NCBI GenBank assembly: GCA_945883425.1
Contig: CAMCXM010000017.1
Span: forward strand, 1-36,717
Source of the DNA: Spirosoma fluviale
GTDB lineage: Bacteria > Bacteroidota > Bacteroidia > Cytophagales > Flexibacteraceae
Reading direction: 5' to 3'
DNA: 36,717 bases
Position numbers and translations under genes: made by a program. The notes below the pieces were generated by a model, which was not told the origin of the DNA, did no database searches, and saw only the letters and a program-made list of their open reading frames with translations. Of this stretch, positions 1,071-7,482 are shown one piece after another (within the stretch, counting starts at the first letter, position 1; each line of letters opens with the position of its first letter).

Positions 1071-1103
1071 CAAAAAAATAGGCCAGCCACAGGATGGCTG
1101 ACC
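1071..1103 (-). terminator. Rho-independent terminator of the four-gene envelope cluster
   Basis: Read on the minus strand, GGTCAGCCA (1103-1095), loop TCCTG, TGGCTGGCC (1089-1081) form a 9-bp stem with one G-U pair. TATTTTTTTG follows at once. It lies about 80 bases after the stop codon of the last gene of the cluster (1184-2107), as expected for its terminator. Confidence 0.8.
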
Positions 1104-1112
1104 CTCTTTACA

Positions 1113-1183: not shown

Positions 1184-2107
1184 CTACCTCATCCAGCCGT
1201 TGAAGTCATAGATTTTCGGTCGGTTGGCGGCATCGACAAGGGCGTATTCTTTGATGAATTTCAGGATGTCTTTCTGCAGATCGAGCTGGGCCTGATACTT
1301 CCGCATGTGCTGCTCGTTGAGCTTTTTCACCGTTTTCTGGGCTTCGTCGAAGCATTTTGTGCCCGGCAAAATTTGTCCGAGATACAAGGCCGCCTCGTCT
1401 TCATGACCCGCCGCCATTTCGGCATTGGCCTTCTGCAATAAGGTGCCGCATAGAAACTCCTGCTTTTGTTTGAAAACGATGGGCAACTGGATCATGGCCT
1501 TGTCGTAGCAGGTTGTGGCTTCCGGTGGCACGGAAAGCAAATCTTCCAGGGCTGCGTCAAACTGTTGGCTGGCCGCTTTTGCGCTCACATCTTTGAGGAT
1601 CCGGTCGCAGTTGTTGTTGTAGTAATCCACAATCTTCATTTTCCCCTCCGATATAAAACCGGCAATTTCAGCACTGGAAGACGGCAGATTCTGCACCCCG
1701 TTCAGGTAGGCTTCCTGCTCATTTTTCCCGATACCGGTTGCTTTGAAGGTCTTCGAGGTGAACACCTTTTTCTGACTGGCATCGGCGATAAAAAGGACAA
1801 TGTCCATTTTCGCCAATACCTTAGGCGGTGCAGACGGTGTGTTTTCAAACTGGGTGACCAGTATTTTAGGCAACAGCACAAACCGGGACGAAACCCCAGC
1901 CTCTCCTCCCATTCCATTGGAAGAAGCAATCTGGATCATTTTGGTTTTCAGCCGGCTGGTGAGATCTTCGCTGGTAATGTTTCCCTGATCGGGCACCATG
2001 GCCGACAAAATAAAATAGGGATTGGAAGGTGTGGTTCCCTTGTTTTCCTGTGCCCTGACAACGAAAGAGGAAATCAGAAGCAATCCGGTAATGAATATCG
2101 TTTTCAT
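1184..2107 (-). CDS. Exported protein of unknown function with C-terminal helical repeat region
   Basis: A 307-residue protein with a clear signal peptide (MKTIFITGLLLISSFVVRAQ, cleavage near residue 19). Residues about 25-145 look like an alpha/beta domain with a segment ADASQKKVFTSKTFKATGIG, reminiscent of lipoprotein/curli-assembly (LpoB/CsgG-like) folds. The segment after residue 160 (NNNCDRILKDVSAKAASQQFDAALEDLLSVP and similar) looks like TPR-like helical hairpins, each with a cysteine. It is the last gene of a four-gene minus-strand cluster, starting two bases after the DUF6175-like gene stops. It is probably periplasmic and functions with the other three exported proteins. I do not recognise the family by name. 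The domain descriptions are inferences from sequence feel, not from alignment. Confidence 0.6.
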   Translation of the reverse strand: MKTIFITGLLLISSFVVRAQENKGTTPSNPYFILSAMVPDQGNITSEDLTSRLKTKMIQIASSNGMGGEAGVSSRFVLLPKILVTQFENTPSAPPKVLAKMDIVLFIADASQKKVFTSKTFKATGIGKNEQEAYLNGVQNLPSSSAEIAGFISEGKMKIVDYYNNNCDRILKDVSAKAASQQFDAALEDLLSVPPEATTCYDKAMIQLPIVFKQKQEFLCGTLLQKANAEMAAGHEDEAALYLGQILPGTKCFDEAQKTVKKLNEQHMRKYQAQLDLQKDILKFIKEYALVDAANRPKIYDFNGWMR

Positions 2108-2109
2108 GG

Positions 2110-3081
2110 TTATTTGGTTTTAGCGCCCAGGTATAAATCGACTCCGCCCAAGCCTCTTGCCTGCAACTTGATTTTCGCTTGTGCCGGACAAGTGGTTTTC
2201 AGGTATTTCTCCAGTTCTTTTCCAAAAGCTTTGGCGTCGTAGGCCTTTTCGTCTTTGATGAGATCAATCCGCACATTGGTGAACTGCAGGCGGGTTTCGG
2301 TATTGGTACCGGCCTTGAATTCTCCGCCTTTGGCGTGGGCCGTGAGCCAGTCTTCGATGAGGTCGTTTAGTTCCTTGCCGTTGCACTCAGTTTCGAAATC
2401 GAATCCGGCTCCTTCCGCTATGCGCAGACGCAGTACAATTTCGCGTCCTCTTGTTTCAATGCTTTCGCGGTATTCCGTCAGTGATGTAATCAGATTGTCG
2501 ATGTGGGTAAGTACACCTTCCTGCAACATGGCGGCTGTATTGTTGGATAAGCTGGGCTCTCCTACCCCACTTTTGGCGGCAATGGTTTTTTTGGTATAGG
2601 CATCTACCGCCAGCAGTGTAAACGAAATTTGTCGTTTGGGTGCCTGTCCGGTAATGTCCCACAACACATATAAGGCCACATCGGGCCGGGCGGTTTCGGT
2701 GACTTCGTCGTACGGACTTTTGTCCACCGTTTTACCGGCCTTTCCCAGGACGACTGCCTCTTCGGCCCGGTCCTGTTTGATTCCGTCCAGCGTCGCTTTC
2801 AGGTTTTCGAGGGGAAAGCCGCGGTCAGCAAAAATGCCCTCGATTTTGGCGATCACCTGAATGAGATCGGGATCGTTTTGAAAGGCTTTGTTGTAGTCCG
2901 GCACTGTGGAAACCACACCTGAAACCGGATCTTTGTAATCAATGGAATATCCCTTTGCGATGCAATACTGATCGTGCGGAAACACCATGATGGACGAAAC
3001 TTTTGCTCTTTGAGCTACTGCCTGAAATGATGCGGACACAAAGCCGATCAGCAGGATGATAAAAAATGAAATGCGTTTCAT
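2110..3081 (-). CDS. DUF6175-like exported protein
   Basis: A 323-residue protein with signal peptide MKRISFFIILLIGFVSASFQ, likely cleaved after AVAQ. The mature part begins with a beta-strand segment KVSSIMVFPHDQYCIAKGY. It continues through a region DVALYVLWDITGQAPKRQISFTLLAVDAYTKKTIAAKSG, typical of a surface-exposed alpha/beta (CsgG/TolB-N-like) fold. It ends with a second alpha/beta domain that contains paired cysteines (CNGKELND, TTCPAQAK). The arrangement recalls DUF6175 proteins of Bacteroidota, which have no known function. The gene is third in a same-strand run of four exported proteins. Spacing is 21 bases from the lipoprotein gene stop and 2 bases to the next gene, so an operon is likely. 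The family assignment is from memory and moderately sure. Confidence 0.6.
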   Translation of the reverse strand: MKRISFFIILLIGFVSASFQAVAQRAKVSSIMVFPHDQYCIAKGYSIDYKDPVSGVVSTVPDYNKAFQNDPDLIQVIAKIEGIFADRGFPLENLKATLDGIKQDRAEEAVVLGKAGKTVDKSPYDEVTETARPDVALYVLWDITGQAPKRQISFTLLAVDAYTKKTIAAKSGVGEPSLSNNTAAMLQEGVLTHIDNLITSLTEYRESIETRGREIVLRLRIAEGAGFDFETECNGKELNDLIEDWLTAHAKGGEFKAGTNTETRLQFTNVRIDLIKDEKAYDAKAFGKELEKYLKTTCPAQAKIKLQARGLGGVDLYLGAKTK

Positions 3082-3102
3082 AGGAATGAAAATGTGGTGA
3101 GA

Positions 3103-3672
3103 TTAAAATTCGAATTTCTTAATGATACCGTCCTGCTCGAGGCGTCTGCGGAGAAGACTCACGTTAACGGCCACGGCGACACCGACTTTGTACCGGTTAT
3201 CGACCTTCATGCGGTCGTTTGGATTGACGGAACCGTCGCCGGAGAAACCGACGTATAAACGGTAGGGTCCGTTGGCATAACCGGGGAGCAAACGAACCCG
3301 GCCAAAGATGGAAACCGCTGTGGTGGAGATGTCTTTTACGTCTTTGATGCCGAAGAATTTGGCAAAGTATTCACGGTTTTTGTTGAAGGCATCCAGATCC
3401 GGAATGAGTGGTTTTTCCTGGTTGCTTCCCGGAATTCCTTTGAAAAGGACGGCATGCACGGCATCCATTTTGCAGCGTTCGATGGCATCATCGGGATCAT
3501 ATCCATAACTGAATACTTTGAAATTGACGTTGCCCTGGGTGCTTTGAACCATGGGGACAACTTCATAATTGAGGGCGACACCGGTGTTGTTTTTCCGGTA
3601 GCAGGAGGCGAGGCTGAGGAGAATAAAACCGGCTCCAAATAGGATGAGGTTTTTCATAAATCGGTTTTTCAT
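3103..3672 (-). CDS. LpoB/LPP20-like lipoprotein
   Basis: A 189-residue lipoprotein starting MKNRFMKNLILFGAGFILLSLASC; LASC is a good lipobox with the lipidated cysteine at about residue 24. A second possible start is the ATG at 3657. The longer frame to 3756 overlaps the upstream gene and would bury the signal peptide, so it is rejected. The mature part has the pattern seen in LpoB/LPP20/FlgT-N-like envelope proteins. These are GYDPDDAIERCKMDAVHAVLFKGI, then a YFAKFF segment, then R-YKVGVAVAVNVSLLRRRLEQDGIIKKFEF with an amphipathic C-terminal helix. In other systems such domains occur in lipoproteins that activate or scaffold envelope machines. It is the second gene of the four-gene cluster. 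The role is not known. Confidence 0.6.
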   Translation of the reverse strand: MKNRFMKNLILFGAGFILLSLASCYRKNNTGVALNYEVVPMVQSTQGNVNFKVFSYGYDPDDAIERCKMDAVHAVLFKGIPGSNQEKPLIPDLDAFNKNREYFAKFFGIKDVKDISTTAVSIFGRVRLLPGYANGPYRLYVGFSGDGSVNPNDRMKVDNRYKVGVAVAVNVSLLRRRLEQDGIIKKFEF

Positions 3673-3730
3673 CGGCTTGAAATTTATATGGTCAAAACTA
3701 AAGGATAAAGAATATGTGTGGTGATGCCTG

Positions 3731-5587
3731 TTAGATATCGTAACGAAGTTTAACATTTACCATCAGGCCCATTTTGATGCGGTTGGACTGCTCGTCGGTA
3801 GCCTTAGTAGCTTTTCCCAGAATCGGCAAATTCCATGAAGGATTCTTGCTCAGGGTATTGGCATATCCCGAAAACACAAGCTTGAATTTATGGGTGAGGT
3901 TGATGCCCAGATCGGCACCCGCTTTAAATGAAAATGTCACCCCCCAATCTTTCCCTAAAACGGCATTGGCCCGCTTGTTCAGATTGGTGTCGGAATAGGT
4001 TATGTTATTGAAATTGACCGAGGCAAAAGGAGAAAACTGAAAATGGTGAAGGAAATGAAAATCCCGCTGCACACCCAAGCCAGCACCAATAGTGGCCAGA
4101 TCGTTGCTTTTATAATTCGATCCAAAGTATTTCTGTACCGTAGAACTATCGGCCCCTTTCTGATGATATACATCAAAATCGATAAAAATCCGGAGTTGGG
4201 AAGGCGGACCTTTAGTGCCGTCAGAATGGGCGGTTGCCGCCAGATTCACCGACAACCTGCCATTGAACCAGTTTCTGTTTTTGGTGGTTGGAATAGAGGA
4301 CCCGGCAAAAAAGGAAAAACCAATATCCCGTTTCTGCTCAATGAGCATGCCCGGAGTAAGGCGACCGCCGGCCACCTGATAAAACTTGGTTTGTCCACTC
4401 TGACCGGTTGCAATGGTCCGGTTGTCGGGCACCCGTTTTGCACGGATCACCCCTCTTCGAACCGTTGCCGGCTGGCCGTTTTTCATAACGTTTTCGTACA
4501 CAAAGAAGCGCTGGTCGAGAAAGACACCTTCCTTAAGTCCGACTTTGGCTTCGGGCGGATGCACCGAAACCAGCGGGGCACGAACTCTGAAATCACTCAC
4601 CGAAAGTTCAAATTCCCGCAATGCTTTGGAATGAATATCGCTCATGAGTTTGTTCAGTAAAGCTATATCCGTCGATGGATACTGCATTTTCCGGGATTCG
4701 AGTGATTCGACCGTAAACGTTGTTTTACCAAGCAGTTCAAGCGGATACGACATGGAATCGCGTTTGGCTTTGGATCCATAGTTCATCCACATTTCATTCA
4801 TCAACGTATCGTTCATATTGATCCGGTAACACCAGGCCTGAACAGAACCTTTGTATCCTCTCAACAACCGATTGACAGGTTTGTACTGAATTCTTCCTTT
4901 CGATCGCCTCGACATCTCTGCATTGCGGGCGTCCTGACGGTCGTAAATCTCCTCCATCGATAGAAAGTTTTGAGGCGCAAAAGCAATGACAAAGGATTTC
5001 TTAATGATCCGTTCGCTCCAGATGGCATTCTCACTTCCGGCGGTAAATCCCTTTGCGCTGTTTTTCAGTAACATTACCTGGTCGTCGGTCATGTTGTACT
5101 GTCCACGTTTCAACAGGGAATCCAGTTTCCAGGTCTTTCCATCCGAGGCGAAAATGATGTCCATTATTTTGTTGGGCAACTTCTGCATCCGGATGGCCTG
5201 GCTGATTTGGTCTTCTTTTAATCCGGGAGAAACGCTTGAAATCACACTTCGCCGAATGACATCGTCGGCAATGCGGTTGTCGAAAAACTTATCGGGTACC
5301 AACAAAGTGGAATGATACGATGAAATAAGCTCTTCGAACCGGGGTTCAGATAAGGCATCGACCAAAACATAGGTAATTCCACACCGGTCATAGTCGGCCG
5401 AAATAAACTTTGCAGGAACAGATATTGGTTGCTTGGGTTGTGATGGACTTTGCGCTAATAGCGGAATCGAATCAAAATTGCAAAATACAAGCGATGTAAA
5501 AACGAGCAAAGAGCTTGCCTTCAGTTTGATAAAGAAAGATGTAACATGAAAACCGATCACTACATTTGCTTTTTTAGCATGATGCAT
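3731..5587 (-). CDS. Exported protein with probable C-terminal outer-membrane beta-barrel
   Basis: A 618-residue protein, the first gene of the four-gene cluster. A long N-terminus precedes a hydrophobic stretch (ASSLLVFTSLVFCNF) ending near PLLAQS, a probable signal peptide. The first half (about 50-430) is alpha/beta and rich in YD-R and GYKGSVQAWCYRINMNDTLM-type strands. The last 190 residues alternate polar and hydrophobic residues (RLSVNLAATAH, RIFIDFDVYH, FSPFASVNFNNITY, GLMVNVKLRYDI). They end close to an aromatic residue, as in outer-membrane barrels. I infer an outer-membrane component with a large soluble domain. The family is not recognised. It could also be a soluble beta-sandwich protein. 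The other three genes of the cluster follow on the same strand. Confidence 0.55.
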   Translation of the reverse strand: MHHAKKANVVIGFHVTSFFIKLKASSLLVFTSLVFCNFDSIPLLAQSPSQPKQPISVPAKFISADYDRCGITYVLVDALSEPRFEELISSYHSTLLVPDKFFDNRIADDVIRRSVISSVSPGLKEDQISQAIRMQKLPNKIMDIIFASDGKTWKLDSLLKRGQYNMTDDQVMLLKNSAKGFTAGSENAIWSERIIKKSFVIAFAPQNFLSMEEIYDRQDARNAEMSRRSKGRIQYKPVNRLLRGYKGSVQAWCYRINMNDTLMNEMWMNYGSKAKRDSMSYPLELLGKTTFTVESLESRKMQYPSTDIALLNKLMSDIHSKALREFELSVSDFRVRAPLVSVHPPEAKVGLKEGVFLDQRFFVYENVMKNGQPATVRRGVIRAKRVPDNRTIATGQSGQTKFYQVAGGRLTPGMLIEQKRDIGFSFFAGSSIPTTKNRNWFNGRLSVNLAATAHSDGTKGPPSQLRIFIDFDVYHQKGADSSTVQKYFGSNYKSNDLATIGAGLGVQRDFHFLHHFQFSPFASVNFNNITYSDTNLNKRANAVLGKDWGVTFSFKAGADLGINLTHKFKLVFSGYANTLSKNPSWNLPILGKATKATDEQSNRIKMGLMVNVKLRYDI

Positions 5588-5999: not shown

Positions 6000-7217
6000 T
6001 TATTTCCTTCCTCCGGTGAGTACCCAGAAAACCGGATAGACGGCTTTTTCCAGAACATATCCGACCAGAATGGCTGTGGCAGAAACCACCAGCGGCAGGC
6101 AGCAAAAGATGGCAAAACGGACGGAATCGTCTTTTCCATATTGAAAGAAAAGCAGATCGGTGAGGTAATAGACCAGGGGAACATGTGCTCCGTACACGAA
6201 GAAATTGTACCGGCTAAGTTTTTCCAGAGGTGAATTCTGAACCTGACCCAAAAGAAAATCATATCCAAACCAAACCGAAAGAACCAGCAAAGGCTGTGCG
6301 ATTTTATGCAGGAGATATACCGGTAAATGGAGGTAATCGAACTGAAACGAAAGGAAGGTTTTCAACAAAACCACACCTAAAGCAATCCAATACAGACGGT
6401 AACGAAGGAAAAAATCCCGTATCCTGTCCTCACTGAAACCGCCTTTGAAATAGTATATCCCCAAAGTGAAAAAGAAGATTCCTTCGCCTTCGATAAAACC
6501 GATTCCACCAAAACTGGATACCCAGAGAAAGCCGAAAACACCCAGAATCCATTTTGGCTTCCAGGTGAGACCTTTGACCAACAACGGATACAAAATGCTG
6601 TAGATAAACAAACTTCGAAGAAACCATAGTTGAAACGAAATGGGATGAAAAAGCGCACTTTCAAACCATTGGCTCAAATCCCATTTGTGCACAGGCAGAT
6701 TACCAAACGGACGGAGCCAGGATGATTCAGCAAAAGGAGCCAGATCGGCCTGGGATTCAAAATAATACGTAACCAGAATTCCAAACAGCGACCAGGCCAG
6801 ATAGGGAATGAGCAAAGTCTGACTTCGTTTTTTCAGTCTGGTGATGGGTGTGTATTTCTCTTCAGTAGCCGCCATCAGCATGCCGGCCCGAAAAAAAAAG
6901 AGGGGAACACCAAACCGAAAGAGCCCGTTGGTGATCATGAGCTGAAGGAAAGTGAACAGATTCATTTCTTCAAAAAAAGGACGACCGACCCAGAGGTAGC
7001 GATCATCAAAATTGAAAGAATGCACATAAACCACAGTGAGCATTCCCAGAAAGGAAAGCCGGCTGAGTTTGCAGCTGAGGTAAGGCGAAATGGCCAAGGC
7101 TTTTTTTATTGCAAGAACCGGAACGGTGGCACAAAATACTACATAAATCGGGTGAACGGAACGCCTACGGAAATGAACCGACAAATGAACTAAGCTAACT
7201 GCAACCGGAATAAACAT
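6000..7217 (-). CDS. Acyltransferase 3 (OafA/YrhL-type) integral membrane protein
   Basis: About 405 residues with some ten hydrophobic membrane segments, the pattern of acyltransferase family 3 (PF01757). The core begins ISPYLSCKLSRLSFLGMLTVVYVHSFNFDD, with the conserved histidine in the first membrane helix. Later come FRFGVPLFFFRAGMLM, LIPYLAWSLFG, LWFLRSLFIYSILYPLL and a last FFVYGAHVPLVYYL segment. Members transfer O-acetyl or other acyl groups to surface sugars or lipids at the inner membrane. The substrate here is unknown. The start is uncertain: ATG at 7217 is used, ATG at 7334 would add 39 unlikely residues, and the family core only starts near 7095. A run of seven T at 7101-7107 lies just upstream of the core and is a possible frameshift site. 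The gene stands alone between two gene-free gaps. Confidence 0.8.
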   Translation of the reverse strand: MFIPVAVSLVHLSVHFRRRSVHPIYVVFCATVPVLAIKKALAISPYLSCKLSRLSFLGMLTVVYVHSFNFDDRYLWVGRPFFEEMNLFTFLQLMITNGLFRFGVPLFFFRAGMLMAATEEKYTPITRLKKRSQTLLIPYLAWSLFGILVTYYFESQADLAPFAESSWLRPFGNLPVHKWDLSQWFESALFHPISFQLWFLRSLFIYSILYPLLVKGLTWKPKWILGVFGFLWVSSFGGIGFIEGEGIFFFTLGIYYFKGGFSEDRIRDFFLRYRLYWIALGVVLLKTFLSFQFDYLHLPVYLLHKIAQPLLVLSVWFGYDFLLGQVQNSPLEKLSRYNFFVYGAHVPLVYYLTDLLFFQYGKDDSVRFAIFCCLPLVVSATAILVGYVLEKAVYPVFWVLTGGRK

Positions 7218-7482
7218 GTCTCCTTTCTTGAATGCTGTTTCATCGAAACATCCGACACATTTTGCTTTTGATTTTGCTACCCGCCTGGCAGTGTTTTGCA
7301 AAGTCGTATAGCATCTGGCTGAAGCCGTACTCATCCGACATTAATGATTTCAGCATTCAAAATGAAGAAGACAAGGTTTCCATTATATCACAGATACCCT
7401 TGATTGGTAAAAGACAGTGCATCTCAAAACCGAACAGTGTGAAAAGCTAAAATCTTTGTTCCACTGAATCGCACAAAAACCG

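Follow-up and report, generated by a model that had tools for sequence, protein, structure and literature searches.

A co-conserved four-gene envelope operon of Bacteroidota that possibly encodes an outer-membrane-anchored assembly of the CsgG/FlgT type

The H-ring of Vibrio consists of FlgO, FlgP, and FlgT; it fixes the flagellum to the outer membrane and assists its passage through that membrane (PMC7990780). An SHS2-like fold is common to FlgP, FlgT, and Lpp20 (PMC12222027), and the FapH ring of Helicobacter was shown to protect the outer membrane (PMC11756786). We analyzed here a four-gene operon (genes A to D) of Spirosoma fluviale, whose genome assembly comprises 3.75 Mb and is 94.5% complete; the window, that is, the whole stretch of DNA analyzed, is one contig of 36,717 nucleotides. 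We consider the chances about evenly balanced that the product of this operon is a CsgG/FlgT-type assembly in the periplasm, anchored to the outer membrane and likely forming a ring or scaffold.

The original prediction described four minus-strand genes, each with a signal peptide or lipobox, that are tightly spaced (2-58 bases) and share a single terminator, and this layout was confirmed in the sequence. The features are as follows, in the order of transcription (D-C-B-A).

3731..5587, minus strand: gene D, an ORF of 618 aa with a signal peptide, a soluble part predicted to be FlgT-like, and a probable C-terminal barrel
3103..3672, minus strand: gene C, an ORF for a predicted outer-membrane lipoprotein, with the internal ATG at 3672 as its start
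2110..3081, minus strand: gene B, an ORF of 323 aa with a Pfam match to DUF6175 (PF19672)
1184..2107, minus strand: gene A, an ORF of 307 aa with a signal peptide, an N-terminal domain, and a helical part with four cysteines
1080..1104, minus strand: an intrinsic terminator closing the operon, from hairpin prediction

With the start of C taken at the internal ATG, the intergenic gaps are 58 (D-C), 21 (C-B), and 2 (B-A) bases, and the terminator at 1104-1080 downstream of A has an 11-bp stem and a T-rich tail (-18.7 kcal/mol, z -3.49). Type I signal peptides were read from the sequence in A, B, and D, and a lipobox (..LLSLAS/C) in C. A, C, and D had no family match in Pfam or NCBIfam, and sequence and profile comparison revealed no homology among the four proteins. 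DUF6175 is unmentioned in the 5.39 million open-access papers searched, PADLOC returned no defense-system match for the operon, and as far as literature and database searches reach, the operon is undescribed. Two observations concern its surroundings in the window. Behind the terminator, at 338-1062 on the minus strand, a DUF433 gene (E=1.5e-22) precedes a DUF5615/PIN-like gene (E=3.8e-20), and the two are likely a toxin-antitoxin pair; upstream of D, at 6000-7334 on the minus strand, lies a gene for an acyltransferase-3 membrane protein (PF01757, E=2e-25).

A related-locus search with the B sequence alone gave no relatives, and relatives were recovered when the B alignment served as the query: the alignment-based search of GTDB contigs found 428, of which the best 80 were fetched. 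These belong to Mucilaginibacter, Pedobacter, Flavobacterium, Aquimarina, Cellulophaga, Psychroserpens, Aequorivita, Bacteroidales, and others. With profiles of A to D, the order and strand of C-B-A were constant in all of these 80 best relatives, and D lay ahead of C in 78 of the 80, the contig beginning inside the cluster in the remaining two. The order D-C-B-A was also found at DUF6175 loci of distant Bacteroidota. Since the flanking genes at the 80 fetched loci vary by lineage, the gene order is not merely an inherited neighborhood; no flanking family recurs beside the operon throughout these loci, and a common flanking partner was accordingly rejected. One locus (L032, 8012-13807) carries a rearranged cluster of B, A, a WG-repeat protein (WG repeats E=1.6e-52), D, a barrel-like gene, and C.

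The 80 loci represent the nearest relatives of a single B sequence, and a sample of 395 genomes across the phylum provides the fairer test. B was found in 19 of these genomes, C in 19, D (by a profile of its soluble part) in 17, and A in 15, so that the operon is sporadic, present in about 5% of phylum genomes, and the four families fall in nearly the same 20 genomes, which span 10 families. B and C share 18 genomes (19 each; Fisher p ~6e-29) and B and D share 16 (19 and 17; Fisher p ~1e-24), values that ignore kinship, and A and B share 14. The profiles were partly built from the same positive genomes, which boosts matches there and cannot create absences elsewhere. In nine genomes of one group (f30) the D matches lay outside profile training; in eight of the nine, D is on a different contig from C-B, and the association is therefore not only linkage. 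The family of the window showed the same co-occurrence pattern, except for one genome (G001) in which no D was found and B sits at the end of a contig. The four genes are thus one co-conserved unit. The proposed check of co-conservation across Bacteroidota came out in its favor, with order kept in 80/80 loci and near-identical presence in the 395 genomes, and the objection that the genes might be found apart in most genomes did not hold, as they are rarely apart.

B was originally read as DUF6175-like, and its match to PF19672 (E=2.8e-81; profile positions 4-292 of 293) reached 273.3 bits against a curated cut-off of 23. The protein consists of a signal peptide, a CsgG/PelC/FlgT-type domain at residues 25-212, and a second alpha/beta domain at 212-320. 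In a model built from 50 sequences (mean pLDDT 90.4), residues 25-212 aligned with CsgG (Z 9.7), PelC (Z 9.5), FlgT (Z 8.4), and the C-terminal domain of LpoB (Z 6.7), as well as with TolB-N and LptE, and Foldseek matched GNA1162 and CsgG at E ~1e-4. According to this confident model, the N-terminal domain of B has a CsgG-type fold; for the second domain, the matches were limited to small ribosomal proteins and a designed protein. At the level of sequence, the CsgG profile PF03783 had no match in any protein of the window nor elsewhere in the genome, hhalign to CsgG gave 0.9% for B and 0.1% for D with signal peptides removed, and alignment profiles searched against PDB sequences gave chance matches only. 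A sequence link of B to CsgG/LpoB, at 53% with the signal peptide and 1-21% without it, was discarded, which leaves the fold evidence unaffected. Folds of the CsgG/TolB-N type also occur in the non-ring proteins TolB, LptE, and LpoB, so that the fold of B is no proof of a ring.

C is predicted to be an outer-membrane lipoprotein. Profile comparison did not support the LPP20-like pattern suggested for C: a relation to LPP20 (PF02169)/FlgP, scored by hhalign at 62% with the signal peptide, fell to 1.7% for mature C, which means that the match was to the signal peptide. No Pfam match was found in 13 members of the C family. C is duplicated (C and C') in most of the 80 loci, and one locus (L073, 2324-3694) has a caspase domain (PF00656, E=1.8e-20) joined to the second copy. 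A single protein combines C and B in L028 and in genomes of groups f30 and f51; in group f32 (L042) the B protein is as long as the C-B fusion, and its N-terminal part has no match to C. The four proteins were originally seen as parts of one assembly: the co-conserved unit stands, and a physical complex is suggested, for C and B, by these gene fusions.

For D, a large soluble domain and a probable barrel had been predicted. Mature D starts at about residue 46, with an FlgT-like part at ~65-420 and a beta-barrel at ~421-618, and the model, built from 53 sequences, has a mean pLDDT of 68 (soluble part mostly 70-90, barrel <70). FlgT (3w1e) was the only Foldseek match of the soluble part below 0.001 (E=6.9e-4, prob 0.99; the next was 0.58), and FlgT in the LPHT flagellar ring (8z5n_0) was the best VIA match (Z 8.3, residues 66-420, rmsd 12.8). 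An rmsd of 12-13 over two domains suggests that the single modeled domains of D match FlgT and that their relative placement does not. With moderate confidence, the modeled soluble part of D resembles FlgT. For the C-terminal 200 residues, alignment to outer-membrane barrels gave Z 5-6.5 in a part of the model that has low confidence, and the barrel is supported mainly by its strand pattern and by homologues. The prediction of a barrel-like C-terminus was thus upheld at that level of model confidence, and the objection that the 618-residue protein might lack a barrel did not hold.

The barrel is found on D in the family of the window and in L098 and L036, and by reading also in the f30, f32, and f51 proteins; D lacks it in most other loci, and the barrel is an optional extension and not the core of the protein. 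In ten flavobacterial loci, a separate outer-membrane barrel gene lies directly upstream of a barrel-less D, with a gap of -1 to 30 bases, and two of the ten were tested and belong to OMP_b-brl_2 (E ~1e-22 and 1e-25). Kinship of these separate barrels with the fused one was rejected, as the two have no sequence similarity (0.5%); judged by sequence, a separate barrel gene is at most an analogous solution. An ORF joining D and C was observed in one locus (L100, 4743-6533), which may reflect a lost stop, an assembly error, or real read-through; it was not accepted as evidence of fusion, given that the C signal peptide lies inside the ORF and that a lost stop or assembly error is possible.

A barrel on D or beside it, together with CsgG and PelC as the best structural matches of B, would fit a secretion or export channel that carries either polypeptide or polysaccharide through the outer membrane and lets it exit via the D barrel or the separate barrel. 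We regard such a channel as rather unlikely: no substrate, polymerase, or chaperone gene is conserved in linkage with the operon, the barrel is small (~200 residues, narrow as in the OmpA/OmpW type) and missing from many D proteins, and CsgG forms its own pore, which makes an extra barrel unnecessary. A further observation in favor of the assembly of the CsgG/FlgT type concerns the three genomes positive for B and C and negative for D (G164, G168, and G328), each of which has a CsgG/LpoB match upstream of C. In L035, a CsgG/LpoB-related gene lies directly upstream of C and exceeds both cut-offs, LpoB (E=2.9e-9) scoring slightly better than CsgG; the match directly upstream of C in L033 is borderline, and that in L034, two genes upstream of C, is weak. 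The slight preference of the D-replacing gene in L035 for LpoB, and the alignment of B to the C-terminal domain of LpoB, bear on another alternative, namely that the operon regulates a cell-wall or envelope enzyme as LpoB does, its lipoprotein and B/D subunits spanning the wall to activate an inner-membrane synthase. This is improbable in our view, because an activator needs fewer parts than four to five co-inherited envelope proteins and a barrel, and the sporadic distribution speaks against a core role in the wall. The CsgG/LpoB analogy drawn originally holds for the fold of B and of the soluble part of D and for the gene replacing D; for C it is unsupported by profile comparison.

A had been described as a cysteine-containing helical-repeat protein, which agrees with the data: cysteines C167, C200, C220, and C252 are invariant in the alignment, and the TPR/ARM matches are weak and occur in relatives. 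The N-terminal domain of A matched the C-terminal domain of LPP20-family multidomain proteins (hhalign 79.6% and 95.2%), and Pfam detected the LPP20 domain itself in no protein of the window. In the f30 type, the gene adjoining C-B joins an LPP20 domain, a weakly Ig-like part, and a domain like the A N-terminus, and in L042 D, the B protein, and such an LPP20-Ig-A-type fusion are contiguous. Adjacent LPP20 and CsgG family matches were also seen in two genomes without a DUF6175 match (G055:C2:68919-69937 and G024:C84:28778-29547), which suggests other CsgG-LPP20 modules.

An FlgT-like protein and a CsgG-type protein share one cassette with a lipoprotein, and the reading best supported by this is a ring or scaffold beneath the outer membrane. 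D would be an FlgT-like subunit that its own C-terminal barrel fixes in the outer membrane; in other lineages this anchoring would probably fall to a separate barrel gene or to a CsgG/LpoB-related protein. C, as an outer-membrane lipoprotein, may work closely with B, and B may bring the CsgG/PelC-type domain, which is of the ring-forming kind in CsgG and PelC. A would be a helical periplasmic protein, probably disulfide-stabilized, that may link the assembly to something else. The product would likely be a ring or scaffold beneath the outer membrane that resembles the H-ring in its working, without a flagellum; complex formation, ring shape, scaffold role, cargo, and function are what we infer from the evidence above, and the fetched loci hold no conserved linked substrate or filament gene. 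More specifically, and more tentatively, the operon could be a non-flagellar outer-membrane ring machine, a stand-alone relative or analogue of the H-ring spread across Bacteroidota, in which DUF6175, a lipoprotein, and a helical protein with cysteines work together with an FlgT-like protein fused to its own outer-membrane barrel.

FlgH (L-ring) was found in only 2 of 24 carriers and GldM_1st in 8 of 24, and both are absent from the window's genome (94.5% complete); the operon thus serves neither a flagellum nor a gliding/T9SS motor in general. The same counts bear on an outer-membrane maintenance or stress module with an effect comparable to that of the FapH ring. Its accessory, sporadic distribution and predicted outer-membrane anchoring would suit such a module, for which FapH is a precedent as a barrier-protecting outer-membrane ring (PMC11756786), but the FapH phenotype needs the flagellum to rotate, and FlgH is missing from 22 of the 24 carriers; we hold this to be very unlikely.

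Three of the four proteins are without a family, yet all four are co-inherited in constant order across distant Bacteroidota, and the carriers include genera grown in the laboratory, such as Flavobacterium, Pedobacter, Mucilaginibacter, and Cellulophaga. The resemblance in fold to FlgT and CsgG offers a concrete and testable idea about an uncharacterized operon. This resemblance also bears on whether the outer-membrane rings of flagella originated in non-flagellar envelope machines or were their source, and a non-flagellar ring, if true, could show the role of such rings without, or before, flagella.

Among known systems, the Vibrio H-ring likewise combines an outer-membrane lipoprotein with periplasmic subunits; the modeled soluble part of D resembles, with moderate confidence, the middle and C-terminal domains of FlgT, and B has the fold class of the FlgT middle domain. 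The differences are the outer-membrane barrel of D and the second domain of B; the FlgP-likeness of C is unsupported by profile comparison, and we know of no H-ring counterpart of A. With CsgG and PelC, the operon shares the fold of the B N-terminal domain and, in the three D-less genomes, a CsgG/LpoB-related gene upstream of C, whereas its conserved neighborhood holds no CsgA/CsgE/CsgF or Pel genes and the B sequence does not match the CsgG profile. LpoB, GNA1162, and the TolB N-terminal domain share the fold class of the B N-terminal domain, but they are stand-alone lipoproteins or Tol-Pal parts, unlike the four-gene cassette here. The LPP20 family (PF02169) is approached through the N-terminal domain of A, which resembles the C-terminal domain of its multidomain proteins (80-95%), whereas the proteins of the window lack the LPP20 domain. 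By the tests made, the operon falls outside the CsgG, LPP20, and flagellar H-ring families, and it most likely works like assemblies of the CsgG/FlgT type.
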